From assembly GCF_036373705.1 (NCBI RefSeq), contig NC_089850.1, positions 20,753,256-20,817,255 of the forward strand: a stretch of 64,000 nucleotides of DNA, written 5' to 3'. The notes beneath the pieces were generated by a model. It saw nothing but the letters and a program-made list of their open reading frames with translations, did not search any database and was not told where the DNA came from. This document shows, in pieces, positions 12,901 through 51,792 of the stretch (positions are counted from its first letter, which is position 1; each line of letters starts with the position of its first letter). This stretch comes from Amia ocellicauda (lineage: Eukaryota > Chordata > Actinopteri > Amiiformes > Amiidae). A program made the position numbers and the translations under genes.

Positions 12901-15900
12901 AGCTCTTAACGCTCTGACTCTGCTTGCTATTGTTCTAACAGAGCCAGTGCGGCTCTCCCCATCTCTGACGGGGTCTTCAGTCAGTCCCCTCCAGCACCAG
13001 GCCTAGGGACCCCTGATTTAAAGCATTAAAACAAATCCCAATGTTAAAATGATGCTCGTTTAATCTTTGTGTGCGTTGATTTGAATGCTAAAAAATGGAA
13101 AATGTGACCATCCCCTTGTATAAGTATGGGTGGCTCTCTGTAAGAAGCTTCACAACAGAACAGAGTAACCTTTTTCCTCTCCTGTTCACTTTACAGGGAG
13201 AACAATGTGTGTGATATCAACCCTGTGCACCACCTGTTTGCCGCCGGATCAGCTGAGGTACAGCACGGCCCAGTGTCCTGTTTTTCTCTCCCTCTTGTTC
13301 CTCTGTCTTTCACGCTGGTCTAACCACCTGGCATGAGTGACCGTAAACAGCCCTCTACTCTTCCCCTTACTGTGCCTCGGCTTTAAGGGGGTCGATGCAC
13401 TGAAGTCGGTATGGCGGTGTATGTGGAGTTGTATGCCACTGGAAACTGCACATCTTAAGACAGCACACATACTGAGAGGACATGCTCTGCGGTTTCATGT
13501 GCTGCTGGTCCCTCCACCGGGCCGGTGCTGTCATTGCTCAGTGGGCTGCAGGCCTGGGCTGTCCTGCTTTATGGCACAGCAGCGTTCTTCTCCAAGGAGT
13601 CGCTTTTTACAAAGAGCGTAGAACAGGTGGTCCTGTTTGTTGTTGGTAATGTTGATATGCTTTAGTAACAATAATGCCACACTCCCAGACTGTTCGAAGC
13701 AATAAGGTTTCAGTTGTGAAGGAGCCGTCGTGCTCCTCCTGTGTGTCTCACCCCTGGCCTGCTGTGTCCACAGGGGAAGGTCGAATGCTGGGACCCGAGG
13801 GCCAGGAAACGTGCTGGCATCCTGGACTGCGCTTTGAGCAGCGTCACCGAGAACACAGAGTGAGTGAAGGGGGGGATTTAGCAAATTCCTGGGGGTGGGA
13901 GAGCCACAGCTTCTTCTGATTTGTGTTCCAATCAACCTACCAACTAAACTACCCATCTCCCAGCCCCATAGTTGGTCTCCGTTTCAGGATAATTAGGACG
14001 CAGACACCTGAGACTAAAAAACAAGTGTTGATGAGGGAAATAATCACCCAGAGCTGAAAGCCCTGATTACAGTGCAATTCTGCAGGCGCATGTTTACAGT
14101 GCAGATGCCCCACAGTTTCACTGCCACAGCATAACGGTTCCTGCTGGGCAGAGGTGGGGTCGGCTGGTCCCAGTAGTGCCAAAGCTAGTAGTTCTTACTG
14201 TGTTGGCAGTTTGGGGAGTAAGAAATAAGCGCAGTACTGTCCGGGTGTTTTGACCAAAGCGGAGACCAACATGTGAAACGTAGAGTTTAGTCACAGTGCA
14301 GCGTGGGAACGATGCAGAACCACATGAAACTAAAGCATTATTTCCATACAGTCTGTCACTACGACATGGGCAGGATTTACCACGGAGGATTGATCACAAT
14401 GGATATGCTACCGATTTTAATTGTTTTCATGTCTAAATGTTTACTAAATTAAATGAACTCTGACAACCCTAATTTTCATTTAACACAACATTAAAGAAAG
14501 ACAATTGTACAATTGTAAAGTGGGAAACAAAGTTTTTATTTTATCTCCCCACCCCCAATTGAGTTCATAAGAATTGCTGTGAACCAGCCTAAATCAACCA
14601 CTTCACTTAACCTTCTGGCCGCCATGTCTCTGCAGGGTGGAAGGCCTGCCCTCTGTGTCCTGCTTGAAGTTCAGAGGGGCTCTGCACATGGCCGTGGGGA
14701 CGAGCACTGGACAGGTGCGTCAGAGCTCCTCAGTGAAGGAATGAATGGATAGATAAAAGGGCTTTTGAGTGTCTGTTTCATCACTCCAGATACTGTGCAA
14801 TAGAGACATTTGAAAGGGGCTGTAAAACACTGGTACTCTTAGGTTTTGCTCGAACTCGATGGCACTATAGGCTCATAAAATGATGTGTATTTATAGATTT
14901 TAATTTTATTGTTCCTCCCTCACATGTCTTGCCAAGGTGCTGGTGTATGATCTACGGTCTGACCGGCCTCTCATCGTGAAGGATCATTACTATGGCCTGC
15001 CAATCAAAGCCATCGAGTTCCAAGACCAGTTGGATCTGGTTCTGTCCGCAGACTCCAAGATAATCAAAATGTGGAACAAGGACACGGTGAGGGCCGCTCC
15101 AGTCCTCCAGGGCGACAGTTGGTTCCTGGTTTTAATTGCACCTCCAGTTTTAAGGAAGGAATAGATTGACGCCATTATCAGGAATCAATTCACCCAGTTT
15201 ATTCCAAAATAGTCGTCATGTGTGAAAATCAAAATGTTCTTTGTGCGTGACAAAACTATAATTGTGCATAACATGTTGCTTTTGTTGGACAAAATGTGAA
15301 TTATGTGCACAAAAATCAGTTTCGTCTGACAAAATAAGTATTTGTACAAAATACTCCTTTTGTGGTCGCATGACTATATTAATTTTATTCAGTCTAGTGA
15401 ATCCAATGAAAAGATTTGTTCATTTCATTCAATTATGTATAGAAACAAAACCACTCAAATGGATCTGATTTTCTTGGGTGCAGCTATTATTAGTATTATT
15501 TATTACATTATTACATATTTATTAGTTCTGTAATATTGTTCAGTATTATTACTGCTCGGCATTTAAAATTTAAAGACTATGTATGCTGCAGATTTATTGG
15601 GTAATCCATTTTTTTGTTTCTAACACTTTAATCATAATAATTTTGTGTCACGAAATGAGCATTTTGTTGCATGTAATGATGTTTCCACAAAATTTGTATT
15701 TTGTCCTACTTTTTTATGTGCTTTACCTTTCATGGTTTAAATGAACATGTTAGTATACAGTGGGGGAAAAAAGTATTTGATCCCCTGCTGATTTTGTACG
15801 TTTGCCCACTGACTAAGAAATGATCAGTCTATAATTTTAATGGTAGGTGTATTTTAACAGTGAGAGACAGAATAACAACAAAAAAATCCAGAAAAACGCA

Positions 15901-43805: not shown

Positions 43806-43976
43806 CCCGCCTCTTTTGGGGTTTCAGCAGCGGATGACGTCACAATGAGGCGAGTCCCCCCTCTCCCCGGGAGCGTGGCCCGCGCGAGACCAAACCGGTT
43901 CCTCGGCCGGTTCCAGCTGGTGTGTTGTCACGGAAACCAGCAGGATATAAATACCCCGGGCTGCGGCGCCGGCTGC
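43806..43976 (+). promoter_or_regulatory. odc1: odc1 core promoter: GC box, CRE, TATA
   Basis: In order: CCCGCCTC at 43806-43813, a perfect cAMP-response element TGACGTCA at 43835-43842, a tandem CCGGTTCC pair at 43895-43902 and 43907-43914, and TATAAATA at 43946-43953. Transcription should begin about 25-30 bp after the TATA box, near 43975-43980. Mammalian ODC1 promoters also combine GC boxes, a CRE and a TATA box, which supports the assignment. Confidence 0.85.
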
Positions 43977-44087
43977 GTATTCACTTCAGTCAGTCGCATA
44001 GAGAGGCTAGAGGGGACGGGGGTGCAGGTTTATTTCATTTCAAGAATTCTGGTCTAATGGACAAAATCTTCGTAAATGCTTTTTAAG
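43977..44087 (+). other. odc1: odc1 5' UTR exon 1
   Basis: Runs from the predicted start (about 43977, inferred from the TATA box) to a TTTTAAG/GTAATC donor at 44087. It contains two upstream ATGs at 44057 and 44076 in different frames. The following intron, 44088-45017, is CpG-rich around 44440-44670. Confidence 0.65.
44057..44086 (+). CDS. odc1 short upstream ORF (9 codons)
   Basis: ATG at 44057 followed by nine sense codons in all (MDKIFVNAF) and TAA at 44084-44086, one base before the exon 1 donor. The +4 base is G; the -3 base is C, so the context is moderate. Short uORFs are known in mammalian ODC1 leaders. Translation here is inferred, not shown. Confidence 0.45.
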   Translation: MDKIFVNAF

Positions 44088-45119
44088 GTAATCATTCATC
44101 ATTTAATTTACAAGTGTTTTATGTCATTATTGTTATTGGGTAGAGCTCTGAATGGCTCGACCCAGGACGTGGCTTCTGGGAGAAACGCGTGTCTGTGGCT
44201 CACAAAGCCCCCGTCGGGTCCTGCTGAATCTCTTGCTGATCTTCCAGTTTTTCAACCTAATTATATTATCTGTAATACGTTTTCTGAATGTAGCGGATGG
44301 TTTATAGATTTCTATTAATTATATTGTGTGTGTATTATATATATTTAGTGAGCTTTAGTATTTGAGAATTTAAGCTCTATGTAAAGATCTTCGCTTTCGC
44401 CAAAACTGTTTTAATTTTGAAATTGGGCTTTTTACACATCCGTGCCTGTACGTCGACATGTGAAGGAAGCGGAGCCGGGCTGAGCGGAGCGGAGCCGCTC
44501 GTGTTAGCGGTGCAGACGGGACTGCGTGCTGATAGGCGCGCGTGCTCTATCCGTGTCTTCCCATTGGCTCCGTCTCGCGTCAATCAGCCGGGTTGAGAGC
44601 CCGCTTGCCTCGTCATTGGCCGTTGTATGTCCTCAGGCCTTGTAGGCGGGACTTGATCTCGCCGGTTCAGTGCGGTTCAGAGACTCCATTCATTCTGTAG
44701 AGAGAGAGGCTATTAGGCCAATATACATTTTTTACACCCCCCCTCCCATTTATAATATACTTCAGGACACTCGCATGCATGACTTCAGTATCTTCAAGTG
44801 GGAGTAATTTAAATCGCACATGCCATTACTGGCAGCGCATAAGCGCGGGTTGCGCTGCGGTGAAATCGGCGGTATTGCGCGCACTGTCACAAGGCTAGTC
44901 TGTACGTTATTGCACTGTCGCTCGTCATGTGGGGTTAATTAAACCTTCCCAGTCATGTTTAACACGATCACAATGTTTTTTGCGATTTGTTTGATTGCAT
45001 GCGTTTTTCTTTTGCAGAATACTCGCTTCAGTAAAGCACATAACGGCTTCTTGGAAGGCCCGGATTTTGCCTTTTATCTGAAAGTGTTCAATTTCAAGGG
45101 CGAACCTCCTTGGCTGTAA
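44076..45119 (+). CDS. odc1 spliced upstream ORF ending in Pro-Pro-Trp-Leu
   Basis: Exonic parts are 44076-44087 and 45018-45119. The splice junction is phase 0 and the ORF runs 37 codons, starting MLFK and ending FKGEPPWL before TAA at 45117-45119. An in-frame TAA lies directly upstream of the ATG, so the ORF cannot extend 5' in this transcript. The ATG context is weak (T at -3, C at +4), and the ATG lies inside the 9-codon uORF in another frame. After the stop, 92 spliced nucleotides remain to the main ATG. The family precedent is the conserved uORF of antizyme inhibitor, an ODC paralogue, in which a PPW motif pauses ribosomes in response to polyamines. Function here is inferred. Confidence 0.5.
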
Positions 45120-45163
45120 AGCTGATCGCAGCTCTGTGACGATCCCATCTCTTTCTTATTCAT
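45018..45163 (+). other. odc1: odc1 5' UTR exon 2
   Basis: Bounded by a TTTTCTTTTGCAG acceptor and a TTCAT/GTAAGT donor, both strong. It carries 33 sense codons of the spliced uORF and its stop. The next exon begins at 45611 after CTTCTACAG and holds 48 nt of leader before the main ATG. Confidence 0.75.
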
Positions 45164-45658
45164 GTAAGTCTTTCACACGCACTCCTGCTGGGCGACCTTG
45201 GTTAGGGTTTGATTTAAAGTTAAATACACACGATTGAGATCCTAACTCGATCATTTAACCTCGGCGAGGGCCTAAGCTCTGAGTCTCCCGAGTGCCGAGC
45301 TCCAATTGCCGACCCCGTGCTTTAGATATAGATGGCGATCTTGGTATATTGTAATTTGTCCTTTTAAAACTAATGTAGAAGTTTACTTGTATTGCAAAGG
45401 GTTGATCTAGTAGTTTATGTAGACTGTATGGTTTGCACATAAGTTAACCAATACTGTTCATATTTAAGGTTATAAACTCAAGTGCAGTTCGTTCCCTAAT
45501 CTATAGTCAATAAAGCAGTGCTTTAGTGGAAAGGTTGCTAATGGGATGTCAAAATACCCTGCCCAGTGTATAATCTTATTTAACCCCCCACTTCTCCCTC
45601 CCTTCTACAGTTTTACATAGCTTCTCCAGTGACTTGATTAAATCAAGCATTAAAGAAA

Positions 45659-48600
45659 ATGAACAGCTACAGCCCTGCCGAGTTCGACCTCACTTTCCTG
45701 GATGAGGGCTTCAGTGCCAGAGACATCGTGGAGCAGAAGATTAATGAGGTGTCCACATCGGTAAGGCAGCCCGGGCCCTGTTTTTTTTTTTTTTTTTTTT
45801 GTGTAGCTCCCCGTGTGTGCCTGACACCCCCAGCTAACACCCTGCCCTCCTGTTCCTAGGATGACAAGGATGCCTTTTATGTGGCAGACCTGGGGGACAT
45901 CTTGAAGAAGCACCTGCGCTGGGCCCGAGCCCTGCCACGCATCACCCCCTTCTACGCCGTCAAGTGCAATGACAGCAAGACCGTCGTCCGCACCCTCGCC
46001 ACCCTGGGAGCCGGCTTCGACTGTGCCAGCAAGGTATGTGTGGCAATACTGTGGCCCCAGACTGGAACTGCAACAGCAGAGCTCAGACGCCTGCTTAATC
46101 GCACATTGCCAGTTCCTGCTGTGGTACTGGCAGTGTTTTTGGGAGGGGGTTAATCAAAATGTTCTCCAGTTCTGGCCTGTAAATTGGATGGGTCAGTCTT
46201 TTTTTAGTTAGTGGAGTTGGTTTTGAAAGATGAGCAGTTTGCTCCAGTGACTGATCCCAGTAAAGGGGATCCTCCAGTAAACATCACTGACGACATCACT
46301 TTCTCCCCACAGAATGAGATTCAGCTGGTGCAGAGCATTGGTGTCGCCCCAGAACGCATCATCTATGCCAACCCCTGCAAACAGGTGTCCCAGATCAAAT
46401 ATGCAGCGGCCCACGGTGTCCAGAAAATGACCTTTGACAGCGAAGTGGAACTGATGAAAGTGGCACGCAGCCATAGCAATGCAAAGTAAGGATCTTCCAG
46501 GTTTTCTCCTTGCTTTTCCTTTTATACTTCTCAGTGTGCTGTGATTTAATACAAGCCTCGGCCCTTTCCTTAAACTCAGTTGGCTCTAAACCTGTCCTTT
46601 TTGCTCATTCTCCAGGCTCGTTCTCCGGATTGCAACCGATGACTCCAAAGCCGTGTGCCGTCTGAGTGTGAAGTTTGGAGCGACGCTGAAGTCTTCCCGG
46701 TTGCTGCTGGAGAGGGCGAAGGAGCTGGGGGTGGACATCATTGGTGTGAGGTGAGTCTGCCTGGCTGTTTCACAGGGCTGGATTGGCACTAGTCCTGCAC
46801 TACATAGACAAGACCTAGTGCTAATCCATCTGTGTAACCTGCATTAGGAGTACGGATAACTTAAGGATTAAATGTAGCAGCTTTTCTTCACTATCCTCTG
46901 GTGAGGTGCTATGGCAGTAGTTGTCCCAAGTAGACCTGTGTGGTTCATAGTTGACCAATTTTGTTTTCCCTTCAATTCAGCTTCCATGTTGGGAGTGGCT
47001 GCACTGACCCTGAGACGTACTCCCAGGCCATTTCTGATGCTCGCTGTGTCTTTGATATGGGGGTAAGTCTCCTCTGCGACATCACGGCTTTCTAGAATTT
47101 GTTAAACATGTTAATTCATGATTTGTGCATCTGCTTTTCTAAAGGATAGTTTTTATTTCAGGAGGAACTCGGGTTCAACATGACACTCCTGGACATCGGT
47201 GGGGGGTTCCCCGGGTCAGAGGATGTGAAGCTGAAGTTTGAAGAGGTGAGTTCCGCCCACATCGCCTCAAGGAAATGTGATCTTATGGGTTCAGCTCGGT
47301 GTCTTAAGAGGTTGCAACATTGTAATTGAACATCTGAAGCTCCAGTAGGATTTTGAACTGCAAAGTTCACACGGAAAGCAGTGGAAATCGTAGTAGGCGG
47401 TCACTGACAATGGGCAGAAGTTGTTGGCGCTTCTGCTGCACTTATTTTTAGAACGGCTATTTTGGTATATGGTCACGTAAAAGCCCACGCTCACGGTTAT
47501 TCCTTCCCTCAGATCACTGCTGTGATCAACCTTGCCCTGGACAAGTACTTCCCAGTGGACTCTGGCGTGCAGGTGATCGCAGAGCCGGGGCGCTACTATG
47601 TGGCGTCGGCCTACACCCTGGCGGTCAACATAATTGCTAAGAAGGTGGTGATGAAGGAACAGTCTGCCTCTGATGGTGAGTAGGGAAAGGGGCAGCGGGT
47701 GTTTGTTTGGGGTCAGGAGGGTGGGTCTCCAGCATAGATCTTGGAGGGCCCTCCTCCACTACAATCCTAATCCCCTAAGACTCCTAAAGCCTAGGAACAC
47801 AATGCACAACCTAGCAGTCTGAGGCGAGGTGCTTCTCTCATTGGCTTCCCTCCCTCCTCTTCCACAGATGAAGACGATGGCACAAACGACAGGACCCTGA
47901 TGTATTACGTCAACGATGGAGTTTATGGCTCCTTCAACTGCATCCTTTATGACCATGCTCATGTCCTGCCCATGCTGCACAAGGTGACTTTTTACTTATG
48001 TGATCTAAATTCTCTTGCTTGCCAGTTTGCTCAAACCTAGCGTGATGTTTCTGTCCAACAGGGAACATTCAGCAGTTCCTTGGTGGATCAAAAAGTTGAC
48101 CTTTTATTTGGGTTGACTTAAAAGGTTTTGTTTAGCCTTTGACTTGCAGATGACCTGCTCACTGACTTTCAACTTGTGATGTGTCCTTTGTCCTAGCAAT
48201 GTTATAATAACCCTCTCTTTGGGTTTCCAGAAACCCAAGCCAGATGAGAAGTTCTACTCCTGCAGCATCTGGGGCCCGACCTGCGATGGCCTGGACCGCA
48301 TTGTGGAGCTGTGTGACATGCCAGAGCTGCAGGTTGGGGACTGGATGCTGTTTGAGAACATGGGTGCCTACACTGTGGCAGCTTCTTCCACCTTCAATGG
48401 CTTCCAGAAACCAGACATCCACTATGTGATGTCCAGGCCTGCATGGTGAGTCTTGGTCTATTGTAACTCCTTCAACCAAGCTGGCTTGCCTGCTGTAACC
48501 ACTGATCTGTAGCTTTGAACATGTACACAATTACCAGGGTAATCTCTATGAACACTAACTTGTTCAGTGTTGCAGTGAAGAAAACTTTAACTTCGGATCA

Positions 48601-48926
48601 CGGCTTGATGTGTATAAATTTGCACACAGATGCCTGCTAGATTTGTGACTATTTTTGTCCAGTGTGGCATGTTTTGGATGTAGTCCCAGGGTTAAAGGAT
48701 AAGACCCTGGCATTCACTACCACTGACTGGAGTGTGCAGGTGGCACGGCATCTTCTCCCTTAACTTTCCCGTTATTTTTGTCTCCAGGCAACTGATGCAG
48801 CAGGTCCGGGAGCAGGGCTTGACTCTGCCTTTGGGGGAGCTGTGCCCCAGCACTCTGCCCTCCTGCTGTGCCTGGGAGAGTGGGGTGGAGCTGCCTGCGT
48901 CCTCCTGCTCCACTCGCGTGCTCTAA
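45659..48926 (+). CDS. odc1: Ornithine decarboxylase
   Basis: PLP enzyme that converts ornithine to putrescine, the first and rate-limiting step of polyamine synthesis; a cytosolic homodimer with shared active sites. Exons: 45659-45760, 45860-46033, 46313-46485, 46616-46750, 46981-47062, 47162-47245, 47513-47675, 47868-47983, 48231-48445, 48788-48926 (1383 nt, 460 aa; human 461). The start [18 protein letters not shown] has A at -3. Catalytic landmarks: PLP lysine K69 (FYAVKC), H197 (FHVGSG), GGGFPG at 235-240, E274 and R277 (EPGRYY), and C361 (WGPTCDG). Residues about 117-140 correspond to the antizyme-binding element. The CA dipeptide of the proteasome degron is kept (C442-A443, human 441-442), but the last five residues read STRVL where the mouse protein ends ARINV. 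These features separate it from antizyme inhibitor, which lacks the catalytic set. Confidence 0.98.
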
Positions 48927-50892: not shown

Positions 50893-51792
50893 CACAGATC
50901 AGAGATTATGACATTATGACCACTGACAGGTGAAGTGAATAACACTGATAATCTCGTTATCATGGCTCCTGTCAGTGGGTGGGATATATTAGGCAGCAAG
51001 TGAACATTCTGTCCTCAAAGTTGATGTGTTAGAAGCAGGAAAAATGGGCAGCGTAAGGATCTGAGCGACTCTGACAAGGGCCAAATTGTGATGGCTAGAC
51101 GACTGGGTCAGAGCATCTCCAAAACTGCAGCTCTTGTGAGGTGTTCCCGGTCTGCAGTGGTCAGTACCTATCAAAAGTGGTCCAAGGAAGGAAAAGCGGT
51201 GAACCGGCGACAGGGTCATGGGCGGCCAAGACTCATTGATGCACGTGGGGAGCGAAGGCTGGCCCGTGTGGTCCGATCCAACAGACGAGCTACTGTAGCT
51301 CAAATTGCTGAAGAAGTTCATGCTGGTTCTGATAGAAAGGTGTCAGAACACACAGTGCATCGCAGTTTGTTGCGTATGGGGCTGCGTAGCCGCAGACCAG
51401 TCAGGGTGCCCATGCTGACCCCTGTCCACTGCCGAAAGCGCCTACAATGGGCACGTGGGCATCAGAACTGGACCACGGAGCAATGGAAGAAGGTGGCCTG
51501 GTCTGATGAATCACGAGTTCAAGGTGTTGACTTGGCCTCCAAATTCCCCAGATCTCAATCCAATCGAGCATCTGTGGGATGTGCTGGACAAACAAGTCCG
51601 ATCCATGGAGGCCCCACCTCGCAACTTACAGGACTTAAAGGATCTGCTGCTGACGTCTTGGTGCCAGATACCACAGCACACCTTCAGAGGTCTAGTGGAG
51701 TCCATGCCTCGACGGGTCAGGGCTGTTTTCTCGGCAAAAGGGGAACCTACACGATATTAGGCAGGTGGTCATAATGTTATGGCTGATCGGTG
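50893..51792 (+). mobile_element. Second Tc1-like element, internally deleted
   Basis: Inverted ends: left CACAGATCAGAGATTATGAC then ATTATGACCAC; right GGTGGTCATAATGTTATGGC then TGATCGGTG, followed by TA. Length is about 900 bp, about 300-400 bp shorter than an intact element of this type. The left target dinucleotide has decayed. It belongs to a different Tc1 family from the element in nol10. It lies between odc1 and the ABHD gene. Confidence 0.92.
51044..51760 (+). pseudogene. Tc1 transposase remnant, frameshifted and deleted
   Basis: An ATG at 51044 is followed by an early frameshift. From 51088 the frame gives a full helix-turn-helix DNA-binding region ([20 protein letters not shown], then [20 protein letters not shown]) to [10 protein letters not shown], which holds the first catalytic Asp. 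The central catalytic part is then missing. The C-terminal part ([18 protein letters not shown] to PTRY at about 51757) continues in another frame. The copy therefore cannot encode active transposase. Confidence 0.9.

Follow-up and report, generated by a model that had tools for sequence, protein, structure and literature searches.

Feedback on ODC, the enzyme at the entry to polyamine synthesis, is usually described in terms of antizyme and antizyme inhibitor. The closest described system to the one treated here is the uCC of AZIN1, on which the founding work is reportedly that of Ivanov in 2008 and 2018. The earlier of the two is also said to describe conserved uORFs of ODC homologs from yeast to mammals; these belong to the same gene family as the odc1 uORF below and are likely the same ancestral element. 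The AZIN1 uCC is a polyamine- and eIF5A-responsive uORF with a Pro-Pro-Trp (PPW) motif (PMC9082881, PMC10855120, PMC11058473, PMC8705083, PMC4458265). When polyamines hinder eIF5A, ribosomes pause at PPW, and others queue up behind them as far as the weak start codon (PMC9082881, PMC11058473, PMC8705083). From start to PPW there are ∼30 codons (PMC9082881), the whole uCC has ∼50 codons with an AUU start (PMC4458265), and its conserved end is PPWxxPS-stop (PMC10855120).

Mammalian ODC1 is reported to have a short inhibitory uORF ∼150 nt ahead of its main start codon (PMC5872159); PMC6067879 counts ODC1 among the genes whose uORFs respond to polyamines, and a review citing Ivanov 2008 states that a uORF impairs ODC translation (PMC8162569). 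The short mammalian uORF, too, is an AUG uORF in the odc1 leader; it is not known to end in PPW or to be homologous to ours. Polyamine-dependent pausing on a leader peptide is also described for the MAGDIS uORF of AMD1, likewise a polyamine gene (PMC4505036, PMC10855120), and for the PS-stop uORF of yeast HOL1 (PMC10855120, PMC11550727). Both resemble what is proposed here for odc1 but differ from it in that the pause occurs at termination and the peptides are unrelated. The excerpted main text of a survey of conserved animal uORFs does not name ODC1 (PMC7530721). In the article excerpts searched, no odc1 is described as having a PPW uORF. Novelty is provisional, and the founding papers may hold an earlier description.

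The odc1 uORF of Amia ocellicauda resembles the AZIN1 uCC in its homologous exon, phase, peptide, PPW codons and ODC-family leader, and in having a weak start ∼30 codons 5′ of the putative pause site (33 in odc1). It is unlike the uCC in that odc1 is the gene of the catalytic enzyme, the predicted start is AUG instead of AUU, the length is 37 instead of ∼50 codons, the end is PPWL-TAA without Pro-Ser-stop, and a second uORF lies over the start.

The odc1 gene and its leader

The odc1 gene was identified on the + strand of the window (the whole stretch of 64,000 nt that was analyzed), and its product matches human ODC with 835 bits vs. 476 bits for AZIN1. The 460-aa model is the first among four splice choices that stay open. 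Promoter, leader and main ORF are laid out as follows.

43946..43953 (+), TATA box TATAAATA of the odc1 promoter, read directly from the sequence
43983..44087 (+), leader exon 1 of ∼105 nt, with donor AAG/GTAATC, the best of the region; the 5′ end is deduced
44088..45017 (+), intron 1, from splice signals
45018..45163 (+), leader exon 2 of 146 nt, by sequence comparison a paralog of the uCC exon in azin1
45164..45610 (+), intron 2, with donor CAT/GTAAGT and acceptor CTTCTACAG/TTTTAC, from splice signals
45611..45658 (+), remaining leader in exon 3, upstream of the main AUG, from sequence and splice-site scoring
45659..48926 (+), odc1 main ORF, 10 coding exons, 460 aa

The TATA box at 43946 places exon 1 at ∼43980–44087, and we infer the start site from it. 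By splice-site scoring, donor 44087 is the top one in 43990–44700, with a value of 2.67, which is below all nine coding donors of odc1 (3.7–7.5). Acceptor 45018 has the richest pyrimidine tract among the seven acceptors listed in 44700–45130, and donor 45163, scoring 5.13, is the best in 45018–45600. The acceptor of intron 2 could instead be 45621 or 45630. The 44087/45018 junction is a prediction from sequence signals; exon 2 is independently backed by an azin1 exon with matching acceptor phase and donor motif. Once spliced, the leader would measure ∼300 nt. Two AUGs precede the main AUG, both within exon 1, and exon 2 is devoid of any ATG over its 146 nt (chance of 6% and 14% under two models).

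Other elements occur around the leader. A consensus CRE (TGACGTCA) is present at 43835–43842, ∼100 nt 5′ of the TATA box. Within intron 1, a GC-rich tract with two ATTGG (inverted CCAAT) motifs extends over 44450–44720 and is a possible second promoter. The last 75 nt of that intron (44943–45017) contain no stop in the uORF frame, which there includes ATGs at 44955 and 44973; a transcript beginning in intron 1 or retaining it would join the PPW frame with a hydrophobic N terminus. Downstream from odc1, at 51088–51774, there is a Tc1/Tc3-type transposase fragment (Pfam HTH_Tnp_Tc3_2, 7.5e-18).

The PPW uORF and its start

Two uORFs, in different frames, begin in exon 1.

44057..44086 (+), uORF1, MDKIFVNAF-stop, which runs in another frame across the start of the PPW uORF, from sequence
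44076..44087 (+), PPW uORF, exon 1 part, AUG CUU UUU AAG (M-L-F-K), in weak start context
45018..45119 (+), PPW uORF, exon 2 part, 33 codons and stop, from sequence and azin1 comparison
45105..45113 (+), Pro-Pro-Trp codons 34–36, CCT CCT TGG, the proposed pause site, from sequence

Joining 44076–44087 to 45018–45119 gives 114 nt and 37 codons, MLFKNTRFSKAHNGFLEGPDFAFYLKVFNFKGEPPWL followed by a stop. The initial annotation had proposed such a spliced AUG uORF ending in KGEPPWL-stop, and it is right at every coordinate checked; rereading of the sequence also finds CCT CCT TGG where it had been placed. The AUG context, TCGTAAATGCT, has T in position -3 and C in position +4, which makes this a weak start, as had been said. 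On the other hand, the intron does not "create" the AUG: All three of its nucleotides belong to exon 1, and splicing merely attaches the old frame. In-frame stops at 44055 and 44073 leave 44076 as the sole AUG entry to the frame within exon 1. Judged from the sequence, AUG 44076 is likely the start of the PPW uORF, although near-cognate codons inside exon 2 may serve. Between AUG and PPW there are 33 codons, and the uORF stops 92 nt before the main AUG. The uORF1, absent from the initial annotation, begins 19 nt before AUG 44076 and finishes 8 nt beyond it.

Could an open stretch of 33 codons happen to end on PPW? An open frame of such length is ordinary, occurring in 18%–23% of simulated exons, and this speaks for chance. 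The combination is not ordinary. In the six genomic frames of the window, PPW falls in the last four codons before 3/6088 stops, and of the 1197 window frames that are open for 33 codons or more ahead of the stop, a single one closes on PPW, namely, the odc1 uORF. We simulated 60,000 exons of 146 nt under each of three composition models: With at least 33 codons open and a PPW close, frame 0 gave 0, 1, and 1 cases, and any of the three frames gave 4, 2, and 1. With the simulation and the match in the azin1 paralog (see below), a chance origin is very unlikely indeed, hardly to be credited.

An azin1 counterpart in the same genome

The source genome (988 Mb in 385 contigs; a single genome) was searched with the 37-aa uORF peptide. 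Two matches occur at E ≤ 10, the uORF itself and C24:1481279–1481380 (35% identity, E 2.18). The C24 frame ends with YNSYPEGLGAALYREQFDFNAEPPWDPS and a stop, i.e., EPPWDPS-stop. Coding exons of an ODC-family gene follow in the same orientation, with ∼2.4 kb between the end of this leader exon and the first of them to be matched, and comparison of the joined partial translation with the PDB identifies the gene as AZIN1 (395 bits vs. 331 for ODC). A match of such an E-value would fall by chance 5′ of either paralog with P ∼1e-5 (5 kb) or 4e-5 (20 kb). Conversely, the last 28 aa of the azin1 frame retrieve azin1 and the odc1 uORF only (E 8.2). When a 48-aa azin1 reading with a guessed exon 1 served as the query, odc1 was missed, and the E-values of 2.18 and 8.2 are by themselves weak. 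At the DNA level, the PPW region CCTCCTTGG is identical in odc1 and azin1, and the pattern GARCCNCCNTGGNNNNNNAGYTGA is found at four places in the genome (odc1, azin1, and two others).

The candidate azin1 exon 1 ends with GCTAAG/GTAATG (donor at C24 1480049), a donor resembling the AAG/GTAAT of odc1. It was chosen among 24 listed donors, all read in phase 0, for its odc1-like donor and an in-frame ATT, and it would give a uCC of 48 codons from ATT in the context GAAATTA, with an in-frame ATG 21 nt upstream. Such a candidate fits the ∼50 codons and the AUU start given for AZIN1 (PMC4458265). At C24:1481369–1481392, the end of the azin1 uCC is PPWDPS-stop, with one residue from Trp to Pro, vs. 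PPWxxPS-stop in PMC10855120.

The third ODC-family member, on C11, is assumed to be azin2. No similar exon was found in the ∼19.7 kb that precede its matched coding exons. There, scanning the sense strand for PPW six or fewer codons from a stop returned one unrelated short frame, and tblastn with the odc1 and azin1 peptides yielded weak matches only (best E 0.09), among them a bare PPWD at position 15413 of the scanned stretch, away from any stop. Searches with the ODC N terminus confirmed 0/26 pattern matches in viral contigs; in the genome contig collection 1/58 matches was confirmed, bacterial and unrelated to the leader.

Common descent of the odc1 and azin1 leader exons

Anchored at their acceptors, both of phase 0, the two exons align without gaps, with 12/33 residues identical. 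The alignment score of 60 is reached by 0/200,000 shuffles; without PPW it is again 0/200,000, and p = 1e-5 if the final seven residues are dropped. For the uORF frame the score is 64, vs. ≤4 in each of the eight remaining frame pairs. At codon positions 1, 2, and 3, 20, 19, and 10 of 33 nucleotides are identical (Fisher p = 0.010, or 0.0065 without PPW), and for the main ORFs of odc1 and azin1, compared in three ungapped blocks with 187 codons altogether, the fractions are 0.66/0.77/0.43. The constraint is of coding type. By NG86, dN between the exons is 0.51 and dS is saturated, hence no dN/dS ratio can be given. With third positions near saturation and positions 1 and 2 in agreement, the frame appears to have been maintained in both genes through most of the period that followed their split. 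The introns flanking the leader exon are at background level (identities of 0.23 and 0.18; the 3′ flank of intron 1 has 23%).

Some sequences common to the two exons lie 3′ of the frame: AGCTGAT, a GATCC(C)ATCTC stretch, and the CAT/GTRAGT donor. One of them is a recognizable element.

45145..45151 (+), CCATCTC downstream from the uORF, also in the azin1 exon, from its position in both genes

It presumably corresponds to the heptamer that is conserved in mammalian ODC leaders and bound by protein. PMC7484617 mentions an ODCBP site on ODC1 by name, without its letters.

That CCATCTC and the exon end are common to both genes outside the frame would fit an exon kept as RNA, for a protein-binding element or splicing signals, with the reading frame incidental. 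The bias between codon positions and the protein score specific to one frame argue against this, as does the ordinary fold of the leader RNA (z -0.86), and we regard such an origin as distinctly improbable. A known RNA family or structure was likewise rejected as a candidate: Rfam gives no family at gathering score within the window, and no repeats are present in 44950–45220.

The shared acceptor, phase, peptide, codon-position pattern, CCATCTC, and donor, between introns at background level, indicate that the odc1 uORF is a paralog of the AZIN1 uCC, as judged by sequence against the azin1 of one genome. The likeness to the AZIN1 uCC that had been pointed out beforehand therefore goes back to common descent, seen in the exon, the phase, the aligned peptide and the shared downstream elements.

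Differential conservation between odc1 and azin1

The two frames part after the tryptophan.

45117..45125 (+), TAA AGC TGA after Trp-Leu; azin1 has CCT AGC TGA (Pro-Ser-stop) at the same place

Following PPW, azin1 reads GAT CCT AGC TGA (Asp-Pro-Ser-stop) and odc1 reads CTG TAA AGC TGA. The TAA of odc1 occupies the Pro position, so that Ser-stop is left outside the frame; the stop comes two codons earlier than in azin1, and Pro-Ser-stop is lost. Such changes are what one would expect of a decaying remnant of the uCC, in which AUU and Pro-Ser-stop were lost and an accidental AUG left a uORF of the ordinary kind, weakly repressive and insensitive to polyamines. The weak AUG context, the two in-frame stops upstream (one directly before the AUG) and the overlapping uORF1 point the same way. 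However, the frame is open from AUG to PPW and the PPW codons are intact; besides, conservation of codon positions 1 and 2, with the third near random, would not last long without constraint on the odc1 side. We consider decay unlikely and favor a frame that has been kept.

Upstream of the AUG, odc1 has an in-frame ATT at 44046, with A at -3 and 14 codons before the junction (13 for the candidate azin1 ATT). Reading from it is closed by TAA after three codons. This ATT may be a relic of the ancestral AUU start or a coincidence.

Proposed working of the odc1 uORF

The odc1 uORF is probably a copy of the AZIN1 uCC inherited from a common ancestor, with its frame kept and an AZIN1-like polyamine working. 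Counted against this reading are the weak donor of exon 1, the weak E-values, the 48-aa search that missed odc1, the lost Pro-Ser-stop, AUG in place of AUU, the competing uORF1, the saturated dS, and the absence of a similar exon at the C11 member. From common descent with the uCC we infer direct polyamine feedback on ODC translation as the leading explanation, and with it splicing in vivo, translation, pausing, and polyamine response of the uORF. By analogy with AZIN1, the most likely function is polyamine-dependent pausing that represses ODC.

The odc1 uORF has the sequence elements that such a working would need. Most scanning ribosomes would bypass the weak AUG at 44076 and go on to the start codon of ODC. 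Those initiating at 44076 would make the peptide and, with eIF5A hindered at high polyamines, would pause at Pro-Pro-Trp. The paused ribosome would block the leader, and scanning ribosomes would queue over 33 codons back to the weak AUG; the queue would lead to more initiation there, and ODC synthesis would fall. Because the stop of uORF1 lies past the second AUG, ribosomes resuming after it would skip the PPW uORF and could reach ODC, which makes uORF1 a possible bypass. Since the stop of the PPW uORF precedes several exon junctions, decay of the translated messages is also possible.

It is an evenly balanced proposition that the PPW sensor predates the ODC1/AZIN1 split and still acts on odc1 in a reduced form (AUG, no Pro-Ser-stop, and a uORF1 bypass). 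If true, the PPW sensor would date to before the odc1/azin1 duplication, and ODC synthesis would be under direct polyamine control, alongside the route through antizyme and antizyme inhibitor. One genome would then offer a natural experiment on one ancestral peptide, with an azin1 copy that has Pro-Ser-stop (AUU being known for AZIN1) and an odc1 copy that has AUG and lacks Pro-Ser-stop. Through this contrast, the separate roles of start weakness, PPW, and Pro-Ser-stop become directly testable. By analogy with AZIN1, ODC may sense polyamines directly during the translation of its own message.
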